DNA of 64,000 nt from Chloroflexota bacterium (GTDB lineage: Bacteria; Chloroflexota; Chloroflexia; Chloroflexales; Herpetosiphonaceae), in NCBI GenBank assembly GCA_020161265.1, contig JAIUOC010000009.1, positions 124,001 to 188,000 on the forward strand, given 5' to 3'. The notes below the pieces were generated by a model. It saw only the letters and a list, made by a program, of their open reading frames with translations. It was not told the origin of the DNA and searched no databases. Each line of letters begins with the position of its first letter. The first letter of the stretch is position 1. Made by a program: the position numbers and the translations under genes. This document shows, one piece after another, positions 15,134-60,527 of this stretch.

Positions 15134-15150
15134 GAAATCAGGAGTTTTTA

Positions 15151-15177
15151 ACCACGAAGGACACGAAGGACACTAAG
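15151..15177 (+). repeat. Dispersed CCACGAAG-type repeat
   Basis: The run contains ACCACGAAGG followed by ACACGAAGGACAC, one of several copies of this unit in intergenic spacers of the window (others near 5691, 20469, 38345, 60549 and 60662). It lies just after the alkA stop. Confidence 0.7.
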
Positions 15178-15180
15178 TTT

Positions 15181-15310
15181 AGGTTTATTGTTCTAGCCCA
15201 TTTGTTGGCAATTCAAACACTGGATTACCCCAACCTTAGCGATCTTCGCGTTCTTCGTGGTTCCATAACTTTTGATCATTCATCCCTCATCCTTCATAAT
15301 TCATTCTTTT
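15181..15310 (+). repeat. Direct repeat copy 1 (about 130 bp, intergenic)
   Basis: This block starts AGGTTTATTGTTCTAGCCCA and ends with CATCCTTCATAATTCATTC. It is repeated with few changes at 15340-15473 and includes an inverted CCACGAAG-type unit at 15244-15265 and a CATCCCTCATCC unit near 15280. It is non-coding and fills most of the 400-base gap between alkA and the aminotransferase gene. Confidence 0.8.
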
Positions 15311-15339
15311 TTGATCCACCAAGGATACGAAGTGCACGA

Positions 15340-15473
15340 AGGTTTGATTGATCGTTCTAGCCCATTTGTTATCAATTCAAACACTGGATGAACCCAACCT
15401 TAGCGATCTTCGCGTTCTTCGTGGTTTCATAACTTTTTATCATTCATCCCTCATCCTTCATAATTCATCCTTT
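15340..15473 (+). repeat. Direct repeat copy 2 (about 130 bp, intergenic)
   Basis: This second copy of the preceding block has a handful of substitutions, for example GGTTTCAT for GGTTCCAT. The two copies are separated by about 30 bases containing a degenerate CACCAAGGATACGAAG unit. The arrangement looks like a local tandem duplication of a composite repeat. Confidence 0.8.
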
Positions 15474-20656: not shown

Positions 20657-21340
20657 TTAGGCCTGCGGTTTGTCGGCCTCATCCTTGCGTAGCCGATGTT
20701 TGTCGATGATGCCTGTGGCAATAAAGCTGGTGCGCTCGCCAATGTTGATCGTGCGGTCGGCGATGCGCTCAAGGTTGTGGGCAATCCATAAGTAATACAT
20801 CGCTCGCTCAACATGGTCGGGCTGGCTGCGCATCGTGGCGAATGTCCAGGCCAACACTTCGCGATACAAGCCATCAATCTCGTCGTCGGAGTGTTCGAGG
20901 CGTTCGGCAGCTTGGGGATCACGCTCGTGCAAGGCATCAAGTGCATCGCGCAGCATGGCTTGGGCTTTCAAGGCCATGGTTTTGATTTGGGTTGGTTGCT
21001 GCAAGGCTGGCAATTCGATACAGCGAATCACCAACTCGGCGATCCCCTCGGCATAATCGCCAATCCGCTCAAGCTCCGAGGCTAGCTCCAAAAACATACT
21101 GACCACCCTCAGATCACGAGCCATTGGCTGTTGGCGGGTAATCACGCTCAGGGCGTTGGTTTCAATTTGGTAGCGTAAATCGTCAATCACATTATCGTTG
21201 GCGATAATTTGGCGGGCAAAAATCGGTTCGTTGCGTTCAAGCGACCACAAAGCATCGCGAACGGCCAAAGAAACCCGATTGCCCATATCACGAATCTGGC
21301 CTTCTAGCTCGGCCAAGGCATGCAGAAAATGTTCGCGCAT
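20657..21340 (-). CDS. phoU: Phosphate transport regulator PhoU
   Basis: The 227-residue all-helical protein has two PhoU repeats. Each contains the acidic metal-binding pattern, ELERIGDYAEGIAELVIR near residue 85 and NLERIADRTINIGE near residue 190. PhoU links the Pst transporter to the phosphate two-component system and represses uptake when phosphate is plentiful. The ATG at 21340 (MREHFLHAL) has GAGG seven bases upstream; a longer frame adds 21 unlikely residues. It is the last gene of the pstSCAB-phoU unit and is followed by a terminator. Confidence 0.92.
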   Translation of the reverse strand: MREHFLHALAELEGQIRDMGNRVSLAVRDALWSLERNEPIFARQIIANDNVIDDLRYQIETNALSVITRQQPMARDLRVVSMFLELASELERIGDYAEGIAELVIRCIELPALQQPTQIKTMALKAQAMLRDALDALHERDPQAAERLEHSDDEIDGLYREVLAWTFATMRSQPDHVERAMYYLWIAHNLERIADRTINIGERTSFIATGIIDKHRLRKDEADKPQA

Positions 21341-21430
21341 TCGATACCTCGTGGCCACATGGTGGCAGATATACAAGAGCAACGAACATTGTCCGTTGCT
21401 CATTGCTCGCTATTGCAGCTAACTGGCGGA

Positions 21431-22228
21431 TTAACCGAAGCGTCCGGTAATGTAATCTTCGGTGCGTTTGTCTTTGGGGTTGGTGAATAAATCGCCAGTT
21501 GGGCCATATTCCACCAACTCGCCAGCGCGTTGATCGTTCATCAAGAAGAAGGCGGTGTAATCTGAGGCGCGAGCAGCTTGTTGCATATTGTGGGTCACAA
21601 TCGCAATCGTATAGCGTTGGCGCAACTCCATCATCAGTTCCTCGATTTTCAAGGTGCTGATCGGGTCGAGTGCCGAACATGGCTCGTCCATCAAAATTAC
21701 TTCTGGCTCGACCGCCAAGGCGCGAGCAATACACAAGCGCTGTTGTTGACCACCAGAAAGCGCCAAACCACTTTCCTTCAACTTATCTTTGACATCATCC
21801 CACAAGGCTGATTGACGCAAACACCGCTCAACCAAATCGTCCATTTCGCTCTTCGTGCCCTTCCAACCGTTGATCCGTGGGCCAAAGGCGATGTTATCGT
21901 AAATGCTTTTGGGAAAAGGATTGGGCTTTTGAAACACCATGCCGATGCGGCGACGAACTTCGACCGCATCAACATCGCTGGCATACAGATTTTGCTCGTG
22001 GAACAGCACTTCGCCTTCGACCCGTGCGCCATTGACCAGATCGTTCATGCGGTTGAGCGAGCGCAGCACCGTGCTTTTGCCACAGCCTGAAGGGCCGATC
22101 AGCGCGGTAATTTTGTTGCGTTCGATATTCAGCGAAACATTGTTGATGGCGCGGAATGCTCCATAGTAGACATTCATATTGCGCACAGTCAAGGTATAGT
22201 TGGCAGTGTCAGTTTGTTTCTCGGTCAT
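21431..22228 (-). CDS. pstB: Phosphate ABC transporter ATP-binding protein
   Basis: The 265-residue ABC ATPase has Walker [10 protein letters not shown], a Q loop in [17 protein letters not shown] (the PstB-typical spelling), signature [15 protein letters not shown], Walker [14 protein letters not shown] and switch His in IVTHNMQQA. It powers phosphate import through PstC and PstA at the inner membrane. It starts three bases after the pstA stop. Length and motifs are fully typical. Confidence 0.96.
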
Positions 22229-22231
22229 GGC

Positions 22232-23482
22232 TTAACCTCGTTTGCTGAAGCGATTGCGTAACAAGACGGCAATGGCATTGAGCGATAGCAACATCACCAA
22301 CAACACCACAATTGCTGAGGCCGCAATATGGGCAAATTCTGGTTGTGGTCGCGATGTCCAGTTGTAAATTTGAATTGGTAATGCGGTAAATTTGGCAAAT
22401 GGGCCATCAGGATCGGTCACGATAAAGGTCGAAGCGCCAACCACAATCAAGGGGGCGGTTTCGCCAATTGCCCGTGAAACGGCCAAAATTGTGCCAGTAA
22501 AGATCCCTGGCAAGGCGTTTGGCAACACATGATGCCAAATTGTTTGCCATTTGGTCGCCCCAAGCCCATAGCTAGCTTGACGCAACGACAATGGCACAGC
22601 GCGAATCGCTTCTTGGCCATTGATAATCATAATTGGCAAAATCAGCAACATCATGGTGAGCGAAGCAGCGACGATTGTGCGGCCATTGCCACTATCAGCG
22701 CCGAAGATTCGCCCGCTGGTCAGTGGCTCAAGCGTGCGCACAAAAATCACCAAACCAAGCATCCCATAAATAATTGATGGCACACCGGCCAAATTATTGA
22801 TATTGGTTTGAATGATGCGGTTAAAGCGATTGTCGGTGGCATACTCTTCGAGGTAAATTGCTGCGCCAACCCCAATTGGGAAGGCAAACAAAATCGTGAT
22901 TGCGATCATCCACAATGAGCCAAGCAAGGCCGTGCGCACCCCAGCGCGAAGCGGGTCGCTCGACATTGGGGTGGTCAAGAAGCCAGCGGTGAGCCATGAA
23001 CGGAATTCAAGCTTGGCTTCGGGAAACTCGCTGGCCACTTGGGCATCGATCGCAGCCTTGTTGAACCACGAATCGCGCAGCGTCCAGGTTTCGAGGGTTT
23101 GAGGCTTTAACACCCGCTCAATCACCAAATCGTAAACTTCGCTATCGCTACGGTCGGCCATAGGCTTTTCGCGCTCTAGGGTACGAAAGGCGTTTTTGCG
23201 CATATTATCTTGCAAGATGACCACTAATTCATCTTTGCTAAGCTCATCAAGCGGCTTATCGCTGAGGGTTGCTGGATCAACTGCATATTCGGTGGCAACA
23301 TAGCCAAAGACTTCATTGACCACGTTGTAAATCAACAAACTTAGGGCAATTAAGCCAATAATCGTGGCCGAAAGAAAAATGGTGCGCCAGATTGCGCCAG
23401 TGCGGCGACGGCTAGCAACATTGCGGCGCGCCGCTTCACCTTGAGGCAACCCTGATTTAATCTCATCATTCAGTGTTGTCAT
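22232..23482 (-). CDS. pstA: Phosphate ABC transporter permease PstA with enlarged first loop
   Basis: The 416-residue permease has a first membrane segment near residues 35-57 and about five more from residue 185 on. It carries the EAA-type cytoplasmic loop [24 protein letters not shown] and [15 protein letters not shown], typical of PstA. Most PstA proteins have about 280-300 residues. Here an extra hydrophilic stretch of about 110 residues (roughly 65-175, rich in charged residues) sits after the first membrane segment and should face outside the membrane. Its start overlaps the pstC stop by one base (TAATG), so translation is coupled. Confidence 0.93.
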
Positions 23483-24447
23483 TATTCGTATACCTCACGG
23501 AAGCGGCGTACCAAGCGACGGCTGACCATATTGAGACCGAGGGTCATCAAGAACAGGGTCAAGCCGATGGCAAAGATACTGTTGTAGTCGATGCTGGCAT
23601 AACTTAAGTCGCCACCGCTGATCCGTGCGATGTGGCCAGTCATGGTTTCGGCGGCTTCGAATGGATTGAAGGTAAAGGTTGGTTTAGCACCAGCCGCCAC
23701 CGCCACAATCATTGTTTCGCCAACTGCCCGCGAAATTGCCACCACAAAGGCCGCAATAATCCCCGAAATCCCCGCTGGCAAAACGACTTTGATCGCCGTT
23801 TCGAGGCGGGTTGCACCTAAGCCATAAGCCCCTTCACGCAGGGCGCGTGGCACAGCACTGAGCGCATCTTCACTCATCGACGACACCATGGGAATGATCA
23901 TAATCCCCATCACCAAGCCAGCCGAAGCCATGTTGTAGATATTGACATTGGCCTCACCAAAGATTGCCTTGAGGACTGGTGTCATAAATTTGAGCGCAAA
24001 GTAACCATAAACCACGGTTGGCACGCCCGCCAAAACTTCCAAGATTGGCTTGAGAATGCTGCGAGCGCGGCTTGAGGCATATTCGCTCAGATAAATTGCC
24101 GCTGCGAGGCCGGTTGGCAATGCAATAAACATTGCGATGGTTGAAGTGAGCAACGTTGAGAGCAGCAAAGGCAAAATCCCAAATTCATCAATTTGGGGTG
24201 ACCAAACCGTGTTGGTCACAAATTCGACAATGCTGACTTGGCGAAAGAATGCAATTGATTCTGAGCCAAGCACAACCACGATCCCGATCGTTGTGAACAT
24301 CGAAAGCACACCGCAAAAGAGCAAAAATCCTTGGATGATGCTTTCACCAAGGCGCGGCTGCTTTTTTAGGCTAAACGGGCGAGTTGTCTCACGCTGCGAG
24401 GTCGTAATACGACGGCTATCCATACCAATACTCACCTTATCGTCCAT
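23482..24447 (-). CDS. pstC: Phosphate ABC transporter permease PstC
   Basis: The 321-residue inner-membrane permease has about six hydrophobic segments. The EAA loop reads [27 protein letters not shown] and the following helix contains [17 protein letters not shown], both standard for PstC. With PstA it forms the transmembrane channel. The ATG at 24447 lies 97 bases after pstS, with a strong hairpin between them, and the stop is fused to the pstA start. Confidence 0.94.
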
Positions 24448-24486
24448 TGAAACCTCCCGGTTTTGAATCGGGGTTTGTGTAGGTCA

Positions 24487-24518
24487 ACAGGCTGCGGAGC
24501 CGAAACTCCGCAGCCTGT
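24487..24518 (-). promoter_or_regulatory. Intercistronic hairpin between pstS and pstC
   Basis: A perfect 13-bp stem (24487-24499 with 24506-24518) has a 6-base loop and no T-run after it on either strand. Such hairpins after solute-binding-protein genes usually stabilise or partly terminate the upstream message, giving more binding protein than permease. That role is inferred here. Confidence 0.7.
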
Positions 24519-24544
24519 GCCATGGTACCATAAACCCTTGGTGC

Positions 24545-26503
24545 TTACTTGGTTGCGTCGAGCAGGTTTTGCTTGGCTTCGTTCAATGCTTCTTCACTCG
24601 CTGGGAAGTAGCCCACTTCGAGGATAACTTCATTGACGTTGGTCAAGTAGTAGTTGATAAAGGCCGCGACTTGAGCTTTTTCAGCCAAAATGTTCTTGGC
24701 TGAGTAGATGTACAACGGACGAGCCAACGGATAGCTGCCATCTTCGGTGGTGGCTTCGGTTGGTTCCACACCGTCAATCGTCAAGGCTTTGAGCTTGGCT
24801 TTGTTTTCGTTGTAGTAGGCATAGCCAAAGTAGCCGATCGCATTAGCATCGCCTTCGATCCCGGTCACCAAGACGTTATCGTCTTCGCTCAACTGTGGGT
24901 TGGCACCCAAGATGAACTTCCCTTCTTTAGCGTAGAAGTGTTCGACGAAATAGTCGAAGGTCCCGCTATCGGTGCCTGGGCTGTAGAGTTTGATTGCTTC
25001 AGCAGGGTAGCTGGCATCAACTTGGTCCCAAGTTTTGTAGGTGCCTGAGAAGATATCGGCGACTTGGGCTTCGGTCAAGTTGCTAACGAAGGTATTTTTG
25101 CTGCTGACCACCACGGCCAAGGCATCGGTACCGACGCGGAACTCAACGACTTCACGGCCTTTATCGGCACATGCTTTGGCTTCTTCATCTTTGATTGCGC
25201 GGCTGGCGTTGGCGATGTCGGTTTCGGCAGCAGTACAGAAGCGCTCGAAACCTGCACCCGTACCGATGCTATCGATCGTGATGTTGCCAGTATAGCCGTC
25301 TTCGGTGAAGATTTCAGCCACGGCTTCGCTCAACGGATAGACCGTTGATGAACCAGCACTCACGATATCGCCTTGAATTGCAGCAGGATCAACTTCTGCC
25401 AAAGCGACAGCGCTACCAGTGTTGGTGTTGCTGCTGCTGCCACCAGTCAAGGCATTGACCAATGCATCTTTCGCTTCGCCCAACGCTTGGTCGCTGGCTG
25501 GGAAGTAGCCCACTTCAAGAATAACATCATTGACATTGGTCAAGTAGTAGTTGATGAAAGCAGCAACTTGAGGCTTTTCAGTCAAAATATTCTTAGCTGA
25601 GTAGATGTACAACGGACGAGCCAACGGATAGCTGCCATCTTCCGTCGTGGCTGCGGTTGGTTCGACACTATCAATCGTCAAAGCTGTCAGCTTGCTCTTG
25701 TTTTCGTTGTAGTAGGCATAGCCGAAGTAGCCAATTGCGTTGGCATCGCCTTCGATCCCCGTCACCAACACGTTATCATCTTCGCTCAATTGTGGGTTTG
25801 CACCCAAAATGAATTTTTCTTCTTTGGCGTAGAAGTGTTCGACGAAGTAGTCGAACGTTCCGCTATCCGTGCCTGGGCTGTACAGTTTGATCGCTTCAGC
25901 TGGGTAGCTGGCATCAACTTGGTCCCACGTTTTGTAGGTACCTGAGAAGATGTCGGCGACTTGGGCTTCGGTCAAGTTGCTAACGAAGGTATTTTTGCTG
26001 CTGACCACGACGGCCAACGCATCGGTACCAACTCGGAACTCGACGACTTCGCGGCCTTTGTCGGCACATGCTTTGGCTTCTTCATCTTTGATTGCGCGGC
26101 TGGCGTTGGCGATGTCGGTTTCGGCAGCAGTACAGAAGCGCTCGAAACCTGCACCCGTACCGATGCTATCGATCGTGATGTTGCCAGTATAGCCGTCTTC
26201 GGTGAAGATTTCAGCCACGGCTTCGCTCAACGGATAGACCGTTGATGAACCAGCACTCACGATATCGCCTTTAACCGTTGCTGGGTCAACTTCTCCACCA
26301 ACAGAAACTTCAGCGGTTGCTTCAACTGAAGGAGTTGCAGCAGCTTCAGTGGTGGGGGCAGTAGTAGCAGCAACTTGGCCAGTGGTGGCGGTAGCTGGTG
26401 CTGTAGTGGCTGGTGCAGTGGTTGGAGTGCTGTCGCCGCCACATGCTGCGAGCATTGTCAGCAACATGATTGAGGCAAGCATTAAACTCAGCAGTTTCCG
26501 CAT
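24545..26503 (-). CDS. pstS: Phosphate-binding lipoprotein PstS with two tandem binding domains
   Basis: The 652-residue lipoprotein has a signal ending in LLTMLAAC, with Cys21 as the lipidation site, and a Thr/Ala-rich linker. Two near-identical PstS domains follow: the first begins GDIVSAGSSTVYPLSEA at residue 79 and the second repeats it at residue 378. Each has the phosphate-loop motifs AGSSTVYP, SIGTGAGFERFC, NASRAIKDEEA and SPGTDSGTFDYF. Ordinary PstS has one domain of about 280-350 residues. The repeat period is exactly 897 bp. It captures phosphate outside the membrane for PstCAB. The ATG at 26503 has GGAGG nine bases upstream. Confidence 0.93.
   Translation of the reverse strand: MRKLLSLMLASIMLLTMLAACGGDSTPTTAPATTAPATATTGQVAATTAPTTEAAATPSVEATAEVSVGGEVDPATVKGDIVSAGSSTVYPLSEAVAEIFTEDGYTGNITIDSIGTGAGFERFCTAAETDIANASRAIKDEEAKACADKGREVVEFRVGTDALAVVVSSKNTFVSNLTEAQVADIFSGTYKTWDQVDASYPAEAIKLYSPGTDSGTFDYFVEHFYAKEEKFILGANPQLSEDDNVLVTGIEGDANAIGYFGYAYYNENKSKLTALTIDSVEPTAATTEDGSYPLARPLYIYSAKNILTEKPQVAAFINYYLTNVNDVILEVGYFPASDQALGEAKDALVNALTGGSSSNTNTGSAVALAEVDPAAIQGDIVSAGSSTVYPLSEAVAEIFTEDGYTGNITIDSIGTGAGFERFCTAAETDIANASRAIKDEEAKACADKGREVVEFRVGTDALAVVVSSKNTFVSNLTEAQVADIFSGTYKTWDQVDASYPAEAIKLYSPGTDSGTFDYFVEHFYAKEGKFILGANPQLSEDDNVLVTGIEGDANAIGYFGYAYYNENKAKLKALTIDGVEPTEATTEDGSYPLARPLYIYSAKNILAEKAQVAAFINYYLTNVNEVILEVGYFPASEEALNEAKQNLLDATK
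24551..25376 (-). repeat. In-gene tandem repeat, second PstS domain
   Basis: This segment matches 25448-26273 at a constant 897-bp offset. The stretch 25173-25374 appears identical to 26070-26271 at DNA level, while other parts show scattered, mostly synonymous changes. Confidence 0.88.
25448..26273 (-). repeat. In-gene tandem repeat, first PstS domain
   Basis: This is the partner copy of the preceding repeat. Between the two domains lies a short Gly/Ser/Asn/Thr linker (around GGSSSNTNTG) of about 20 residues, so the units are likely independently folded. Confidence 0.88.
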
Positions 26504-59569: not shown

Positions 59570-60037
59570 ATGACAACCACAACCACTGGCAAACTTCAAG
59601 TTGGCGACCAAGCCCCAAGCTTTCGCTTGCCCAACCAAACTGGAGCACTTGTCGATTTACAAGATTTGCTGGGTAAAAAGCATATTGTGCTGTTTTTCTA
59701 TCCCAAAGATGATTCGCTCATTTGTGTCGCCGAAGTGTGTGCTTTTCGCGACCAATACGAGGTGTTCAAGCAAGCGGGAGCCGAGGTGATTGGCGTAAGC
59801 AGCGATTCAGTTGAGTCGCATCAACAATTTGCCGCCAAACATCGCTTGCCCTTTACCTTGTTGAGCGATGGCGATAGTGCTGTGCGCAAGGCCTATGGCG
59901 CAACCACCTTGGGCATTTTTACAGGTCGCGTCACCTACATTATCGATCCACAAGGCACAATTCAGCATATTTTCTCATCACGCTTGAATGCCCAAAAACA
60001 CATTGACGAATCGTTACGCATTTTGCAACAACATTAA
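59570..60037 (+). CDS. Thioredoxin-dependent peroxiredoxin, Bcp/PrxQ type (copy 1)
   Basis: The 155-residue protein reduces peroxides using thioredoxin. The PxxxSxxC motif (FYPKDDSLICVAEVC) supplies the peroxidatic Cys and a second Cys five residues on as resolving residue, the alpha-helical PrxQ arrangement. The conserved Arg lies in SAVRKAYG. GGAG lies nine bases before the ATG. It is followed after 22 bases by a very similar gene. The residue before the active Cys is Ile, where copy 2 has the usual Gly. Confidence 0.9.
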   Translation: MTTTTTGKLQVGDQAPSFRLPNQTGALVDLQDLLGKKHIVLFFYPKDDSLICVAEVCAFRDQYEVFKQAGAEVIGVSSDSVESHQQFAAKHRLPFTLLSDGDSAVRKAYGATTLGIFTGRVTYIIDPQGTIQHIFSSRLNAQKHIDESLRILQQH

Positions 60038-60059
60038 TCTTGAACTGGAGCATTAATCA

Positions 60060-60527
60060 ATGACTACTGCAACTACTGGCAAATTAGCCGTTGGCGATCA
60101 AGCCCCAACCTTCAGCCTGCCCAACCAAGCGGGCCAACTCGTCGATTTACAGAACCTACTCGGCCACAAGAAAATCGTTTTATTTTTCTATCCCAAGGAT
60201 CATTCGGCTGGCTGCGTGGCCGAAGTCTGTGCCTTTCGCGACCAATATGAGGTATTCAAGCAAGCCGGAGCCGAAGTGATCGGCATTAGCAGCGATTCGG
60301 TCGAGTCGCACGAGCAGTTTGCCGCCAATCATCGGCTGCCTTTTACCTTGTTGAGCGATCGCGAAGGGGCGGTACGTAAACTCTATGGTGCAACCACTTT
60401 GGGCATTTTGGCAGGCCGTGTCACCTACATCATCGATCAAAAAGGCTCAATTCAGCATATTTTTTCATCGTTGCTGAATGCCAACAAACATATCAGCGAA
60501 GCCCTACGCATCATCAAAGAAGCTTAA
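60060..60527 (+). CDS. Thioredoxin-dependent peroxiredoxin, Bcp/PrxQ type (copy 2)
   Basis: The 155-residue paralogue of the preceding gene is highly similar over the full length and has FYPKDHSAGCVAEVC as active site and GAVRKLYG for the Arg. It results from tandem duplication and probably shares the message with copy 1. Both lack a signal peptide and should be cytoplasmic. The two may differ in peroxide preference or expression level. Confidence 0.9.
   Translation: MTTATTGKLAVGDQAPTFSLPNQAGQLVDLQNLLGHKKIVLFFYPKDHSAGCVAEVCAFRDQYEVFKQAGAEVIGISSDSVESHEQFAANHRLPFTLLSDREGAVRKLYGATTLGILAGRVTYIIDQKGSIQHIFSSLLNANKHISEALRIIKEA

Follow-up and report, generated by a model that had tools for sequence, protein, structure and literature searches.

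Concerted evolution of two near-identical phosphate-binding domains in a tandem PstS lipoprotein of Herpetosiphon and other Chloroflexota

The window, a stretch of 64,000 nucleotides from a Herpetosiphon genome (Chloroflexota; contig JAIUOC010000009.1, positions 124,001 to 188,000), carries on its minus strand a complete phosphate importer operon with the gene order pstS-pstC-pstA-pstB-phoU (20657–26503). The host strain is a soil bacterium. The first gene, pstS (24545–26503), is a single open frame of 652 codons encoding a putative 652-aa lipoprotein, identified from the frame and from family models, and is followed by genes recognised with Pfam as the permeases pstC (23482–24447) and pstA (22232–23482; both BPD_transp_1), the ATPase pstB (21431–22228; ABC_tran) and phoU (20657–21403; PhoU), all on the same strand. 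A second PstS-like gene with a single domain and about 41% identity is found elsewhere in the genome (G000:C8:398523-399353, locus L002); neither a pst permease nor an ATPase gene was recognised in the roughly 1.5 kb around it.

The encoded protein begins with a signal peptide, assigned by eye (26441–26503), in which LAAC at residues 18–21 resembles a lipobox by eye, and we take it to mark a putative lipid anchor. A Thr/Ala/Pro-rich spacer (residues 22–78, 26270–26440) leads from there to the N-terminal phosphate-binding protein (PBP) domain, the core of half A (residues 79–337, 25493–26269). An inter-domain linker with a Gly/Ser-rich centre and an EVDPA..GD lead-in (residues 338–377, 25373–25492) connects it to the C-terminal PBP domain, the core of half B (residues 378–636, 24596–25372).

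The first-pass annotation had described this gene as PstS with two tandem near-identical domains at a period of 897 bp, and the comparison bears this out. The copies are spaced by 897 bp, the two PBP_like_2 domains are offset by 299 residues, and the whole second repeat aligned ungapped with the first is identical in 261 of 281 amino acids and 755 of 843 nucleotides. Over the cores 251 of 259 residues (97%) and 718 of 777 nucleotides are the same. The differing codons comprise 49 synonymous and 8 non-synonymous ones, which is consistent with both halves being under constraint.

Searches with family models gave two stretches of PBP_like_2 in Pfam (7.8e-80), and the NCBIfam model TIGR02136 ("ptsS_2", cut-off 206.6) scored 496.3 bits with the whole protein and 250.9 with the C-terminal half alone, while the equivalog model TIGR00975 stayed below its cut-off (74 versus 205). 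The arginine preceding the SGT loop in E. coli PstS appears to be absent here, as judged by eye against the E. coli sequence. The segments GSSTVYP, GTGAGF, NASR and SGTFDYF are the same in halves A and B, in agreement with the earlier statement that both domains keep the phosphate-loop motifs. At the level of motif segments they align with 4gd5 and 4jwo; phosphate contacts are given for PhoX in the accessible text of PMC5439949.

An AlphaFold2 model of half B alone, built from 17 sequences, reached a pLDDT of 85.8 and had 4jwo as its best PDB match (E 6e-28; Z 28.9, rmsd 3.8 over 268 residues). The titles of the 30 best VIA-align rows were all phosphate-binding or phosphate-transport proteins (Z 20–29), with proteins of the ModA type well below (Z about 14), and the predicted model thus shows half B with a PstS fold. 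The full-length tandem, modelled from five Herpetosiphon sequences, gave a pLDDT of 34 and a pTM of 0.24 and therefore allows no statement on the mutual arrangement of the two domains.

Since repeats of such likeness are a well-known source of assembly errors, the doubling of one domain by misassembly was considered. The core halves differ, however, at 59 of 777 bases, the linker resembles neither end of the protein, and the same architecture recurs in five other Herpetosiphon assemblies, one of them a complete chromosome. In addition, two draft genomes of another genus, g32 (G066 and G067), have the gene split over a pair of contigs that share an exact terminal overlap of 141 bases, which is what assembly graphs do at true repeats. 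On the A/B differences, the linker and the repeated architecture an artefact was ruled out, its probability being negligible.

Tandem PstS was found in all six Herpetosiphon genomes compared, among them H. aurantiacus DSM 785 with its complete chromosome (CP000875), H. geysericola, H. giganteus and H. llansteffanensis. Within these genomes halves A and B are 92.4–97.8% identical in nucleotides. To describe how the halves relate between species, a site was called concerted when halves A and B have the same base within each species but the two species have different bases, and ortholog-type when the two A halves of a species pair match each other and the two B halves do likewise. Concerted sites (15–57) outnumbered ortholog-type sites (0–12) in 15 of 15 Herpetosiphon pairs. 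The weakest pair was the window strain and H. aurantiacus, with 15 concerted, 11 ortholog-type and 7 crossed sites; half B of the window strain is nearer to half A of H. aurantiacus (94.2) than to its own half A (92.4). In the DNA tree the two halves of the same genome were joined with strong support for G005, H. geysericola and H. llansteffanensis, whereas the trees leave A and B unpaired for the window strain and H. aurantiacus, and H. giganteus is likewise not resolved in the DNA tree.

The same excess was seen in three other genera. In genus g7 the halves are 95.1–98.7% identical within a genome as compared with 75.6–82.5% between species, and 126–186 concerted sites stand against 2–6 ortholog-type sites in all six pairs; the corresponding numbers are 28 and 10 in genus g8 and 22 and 4 in genus g32. 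Taken over 14 genomes from the four genera, every one of the 23 within-genus pairs had more concerted than ortholog-type sites. As the halves are alike within a genome while the species differ, the pstS halves undergo concerted evolution in Herpetosiphon and in these three genera.

A separate tandem duplication in every species, instead of conversion of an old tandem, would give the same pattern of likeness within and difference between genomes. To address this, divergence at fourfold degenerate sites was compared with that of the neighbouring genes. Halves A and B of the window strain differ at 31 of 110 such sites (0.28), and those of the other five Herpetosiphon genomes at 10/109 to 23/111. 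Between the window strain and H. aurantiacus the fourfold differences amount to 8/179 in pstC, 27/214 in pstA, 10/117 in pstB and 9/104 in phoU (0.04–0.13). Halves A and B are thus further apart than the neighbouring pst genes of the two species, and the duplication must predate the split between the window strain and H. aurantiacus. The junction linkers point in the same direction, being recognisably shared within a genus (GGSSS...GSAV in Herpetosiphon, TG.LP...PTFDY in g7, GMEVKMPE in g32). Between genera and families they differ in length and sequence, so that the tandem probably arose several times in the phylum, which is to the credit of independent duplication at that level. Within genera the linkers fit one duplication followed by homogenisation, and for the species compared here a new duplication in each is, in our judgement, very improbable.

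The first-pass annotation had left the choice between a very recent duplication and continuing conversion. The latter is supported by the concerted sites, while a very recent duplication was ruled out by the presence of the tandem throughout the genus and by the fourfold divergence of 0.28. Each PstS half, compared between the window strain and H. aurantiacus, also differs at 0.27 of the fourfold sites, an excess over the neighbours in Fisher's test (p 1e-7 versus pstC and 0.002 versus pstA). This excess can come from differently directed conversion of older A/B differences or from pstS DNA imported from another Herpetosiphon.

When analysing the distribution of A/B differences in the window strain, they were found to be spread across the domain except for its start, where the first 211 bp are exact. 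This is the longest exact run between the halves, 26061–26271 in half A being identical to 25164–25374 in half B (minus strand); the identity reported earlier for 25173–25374 and 26070–26271 is true, the run being nine bases longer. In a permutation test in which the differing codons were shuffled, none of 5000 permutations reached the observed run (209 bp within the core), the permuted mean being 56 and the maximum 131. The same test in the other five Herpetosiphon species gave 62, 378, 1414, 1896 and 249 of 5000, individually weak results, so that a discrete tract is clear only in the window strain. Codon constraint as the source of the identity was ruled out, since the same 209 bases vary between species (88.5–93.8% identical to the other genomes). 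At core positions 67–68 half B of the window strain matches its own half A and halves A of H. aurantiacus and G005, whereas the alternative codon is found in halves B of H. aurantiacus and G005 and in every one of the six halves from the other clade. The tract is a conversion event, and the economical reading of the codon comparison is that half A, the candidate donor, was copied onto half B, the candidate recipient; this polarity is taken from a single codon. Towards its end (core 586–777) the domain is ortholog-like, half B of the window strain being 96.9% identical to half B of H. aurantiacus.

To place the tandem in the phylum, 82 genomes of the order were searched, and the loci taken for comparison were those that gave a second match or contained a long frame. 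At least 17 of the genomes carry tandem PstS with halves 92–99.8% identical in DNA, namely the six Herpetosiphon and G014–G017, G022, G023, G012, G042, G059, G064 and G065; in at least 11 tandems outside Herpetosiphon the halves are over 94% identical. In the domain tree the G042 protein falls on a different branch of PstS. Searches of the class and of the phylum (E cut-offs 1e-40 and 1e-50; the phylum sample held 400 genomes of at least 80% completeness) added G103, with halves 86% identical over 230 aa, from the class and G204 (99.5%), G240 (100%) and G254 from the phylum. Tandem PstS is thereby present in at least four Chloroflexota families besides that of Herpetosiphon. The next recognised gene was pstC-like at 15 of 15 other tandem loci scanned (13 loci with near-identical halves, G103 and G254). 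PstS pieces also lie at contig ends in G068, G020, G021 and G054, and these genomes may hold additional tandems.

Two further kinds of protein were left uncounted: the distant tandem PBP fusions of G026 (L088) and of a second gene in G012, with PBP domains that are only weakly similar, and proteins of G010 and G024 that join pentapeptides to one PBP domain each. Pentapeptide-like repeats joined to one or two diverged PstS-like domains were observed at L091 and L092 (G010, G024) and at L088; the pentapeptides were confirmed by Pfam in L091 only. In a Chloroflexi MAG (L041:2172-4133) a PstA-like permease carries a PBP domain in its N-terminal region in permuted order, the C-terminal part of the PstS domain preceding the N-terminal part.

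The domain tree comprised 80 rows, 70 of them distinct, with poorly supported deep branches and with the L041 inserts and G055x as long-branch rows, and the number of tandem origins was not recovered from its branching. From the linkers, multiple origins are possible between families, while within family f19 the linkers of G204, G240 and G254 are similar. Homogenisation is not universal. In G254, a one-contig genome, near-identity of the halves is confined to the first 99 aa and the halves have diverged, and in G103 they are 86% identical over 230 aa. The congener G162, likewise in one contig, has a single-domain PstS that groups with G254_A and away from G254_B (100/99), which suggests that one half was lost.

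Single-domain PstS is frequent in Chloroflexota, and the three Acidobacteria loci compared (L045–L047) are all single-domain; the proposal to look for single-domain relatives thus met a mixed picture, as many Chloroflexota have one domain and several other lineages the tandem. A second domain is accordingly dispensable for Pst function, and it may be a neutral duplication without benefit, the likeness of the halves coming from easy conversion of adjacent repeats together with the general conservation of PstS. That so many relatives manage with one domain favours this account, as do the divergence in G254 and the putative loss in G162. A useless repeat of 897 bp, which on in-frame deletion would yield a normal single-domain PstS, should nevertheless go easily, yet it is kept in six of six Herpetosiphon genomes, tandems recur across several families, and the changes between the halves are mainly synonymous. 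We hold neutrality to be unlikely, although it deserves weight.

To see how common such proteins are, internal repeats were scanned in 40 sampled stretches together with the window (864 kb, 14% of the genome, with 7 kb masked and 362 frames of at least 300 aa left unmasked). Four of the 362 frames contain long internal repeats: PstS, a twin GH6 cellulase, a frame with a shorter repeat of 57 aa and an FtsK-like one with a repeat of 75% identity. The cellulase, a secreted-type protein with CBM2 and two GH6 domains (L123:12951-16370, contig C1, minus strand), has halves identical in 426 of 435 aa and 94.2% in nucleotides. It was resolved in five of the six Herpetosiphon genomes, G005 giving separate partial matches only, and showed 25–108 concerted versus 1–13 ortholog-type sites in 10 pairs. 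Near-identical twin-domain proteins with concerted evolution are hence uncommon, yet not exclusive to PstS. Among other repeats observed, a 2277-aa frame with several FtsK/SpoIIIE domains (L136:13169-19999) has an internal repeat with a period of 687 aa and 75% at the DNA level. The window itself holds two adjacent near-duplicate genes of 155 aa (59570–60527, plus strand; period 490 bp), peroxiredoxin-like by eye, and two copies of a 164-bp unit with 88% match (15145–15473), a CACGAAGGACACGAAGG-like sequence.

Taken together, we consider it probable that the protein is a bivalent PstS feeding PstCA-PstB, an old tandem that is homogenised by recombination with both halves under constraint and with paired capture as the benefit. 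From one anchor, two complete phosphate-binding domains would pass phosphate to the PstCA-PstB importer, whose genes lie downstream; we take Herpetosiphon to lack an outer membrane. The tandem would have arisen before the Herpetosiphon species split, and recombination between in-register halves, either gene conversion or unequal exchange returning to two copies, would since have repeatedly overwritten stretches of them. The latest visible event in the window strain would then be a transfer from half A to half B, no shorter than 211 bp, in the opening part of the domain. Both halves would presumably be held to one sequence by the need of each to bind phosphate and to dock on a shared PstCA. That each half does bind and dock, and that the cell gains from having two, is what we infer. 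With both domains constrained and nearly the same, the simplest reading would be two equivalent capture sites, each handing phosphate to PstCA; two such sites per anchor next to the importer would be the likely benefit, and a raised local capture of phosphate at PstCA, as suggested in the first-pass annotation, is plausible.

The domains lie at unequal distances from the membrane anchor, and this could be taken for a division of labour in which one half delivers phosphate while the other serves PhoU/PhoR signalling, a surface scaffold or a second anion. The identity of the halves, however, is 97% in this protein and reaches 100% in others, and homogenisation opposes specialisation, which makes such a division improbable. 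A wider extension of the bivalent reading would be that recombination between the repeats switches the domain copy number reversibly and in frame, tuned to phosphate supply and giving one, two or perhaps three phosphate-binding domains per anchor, and that bivalent secreted proteins such as PstS and the GH6 cellulase are a recombination-maintained Chloroflexota design; this extension we regard as doubtful.

With single-domain PstS lipoproteins (TIGR02136/PBP_like_2, of the 4jwo and 4gd5 type) the protein shares its fold, its family models and the pstCAB-phoU operon, but here two binding domains are placed on one chain with one anchor. Two covalently linked substrate-binding domains serving one importer are described for GlnPQ, where, in the accessible text of PMC8025302, the tandem domains are joined by a 14-residue linker and bind for the most part independently of each other. 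The GlnPQ tandem is part of the same chain as the transmembrane subunit, while here it is a separate lipoprotein and PstS, PstC and PstA are separate ORFs; the GlnPQ domains also differ in specificity, which is unlikely for domains as alike as those found here. Long-lasting recurrent concerted evolution of prokaryotic paralogues has been described for 26 genes including tuf, psbA and amo (PMC6053082, accessible text), where, in at least five species, copies from the same species resemble each other more closely than orthologues from different species do, as in the present case. The copies there are whole genes, whereas here they are two domains of one gene; the nearest parallel is the mtrA case, which involves gene fusion, and pstS is absent from the 26 genes tabulated. 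Tandem binding domains and prokaryotic concerted evolution are hence each known, and in the literature searched, as far as its text was accessible, no description was found of a tandem PstS or of tandem domains combined with concerted evolution.

Most known tandem domains of importers are fusions in which the domains differ in specificity, and the present proteins would add equal domains kept alike by recombination. As short-read assemblies can break or collapse such genes, the tandem architecture is probably under-counted. Several families with the tandem, together with at least one case of divergence and apparent loss, would offer a natural experiment on the value of two equal capture sites per anchor.
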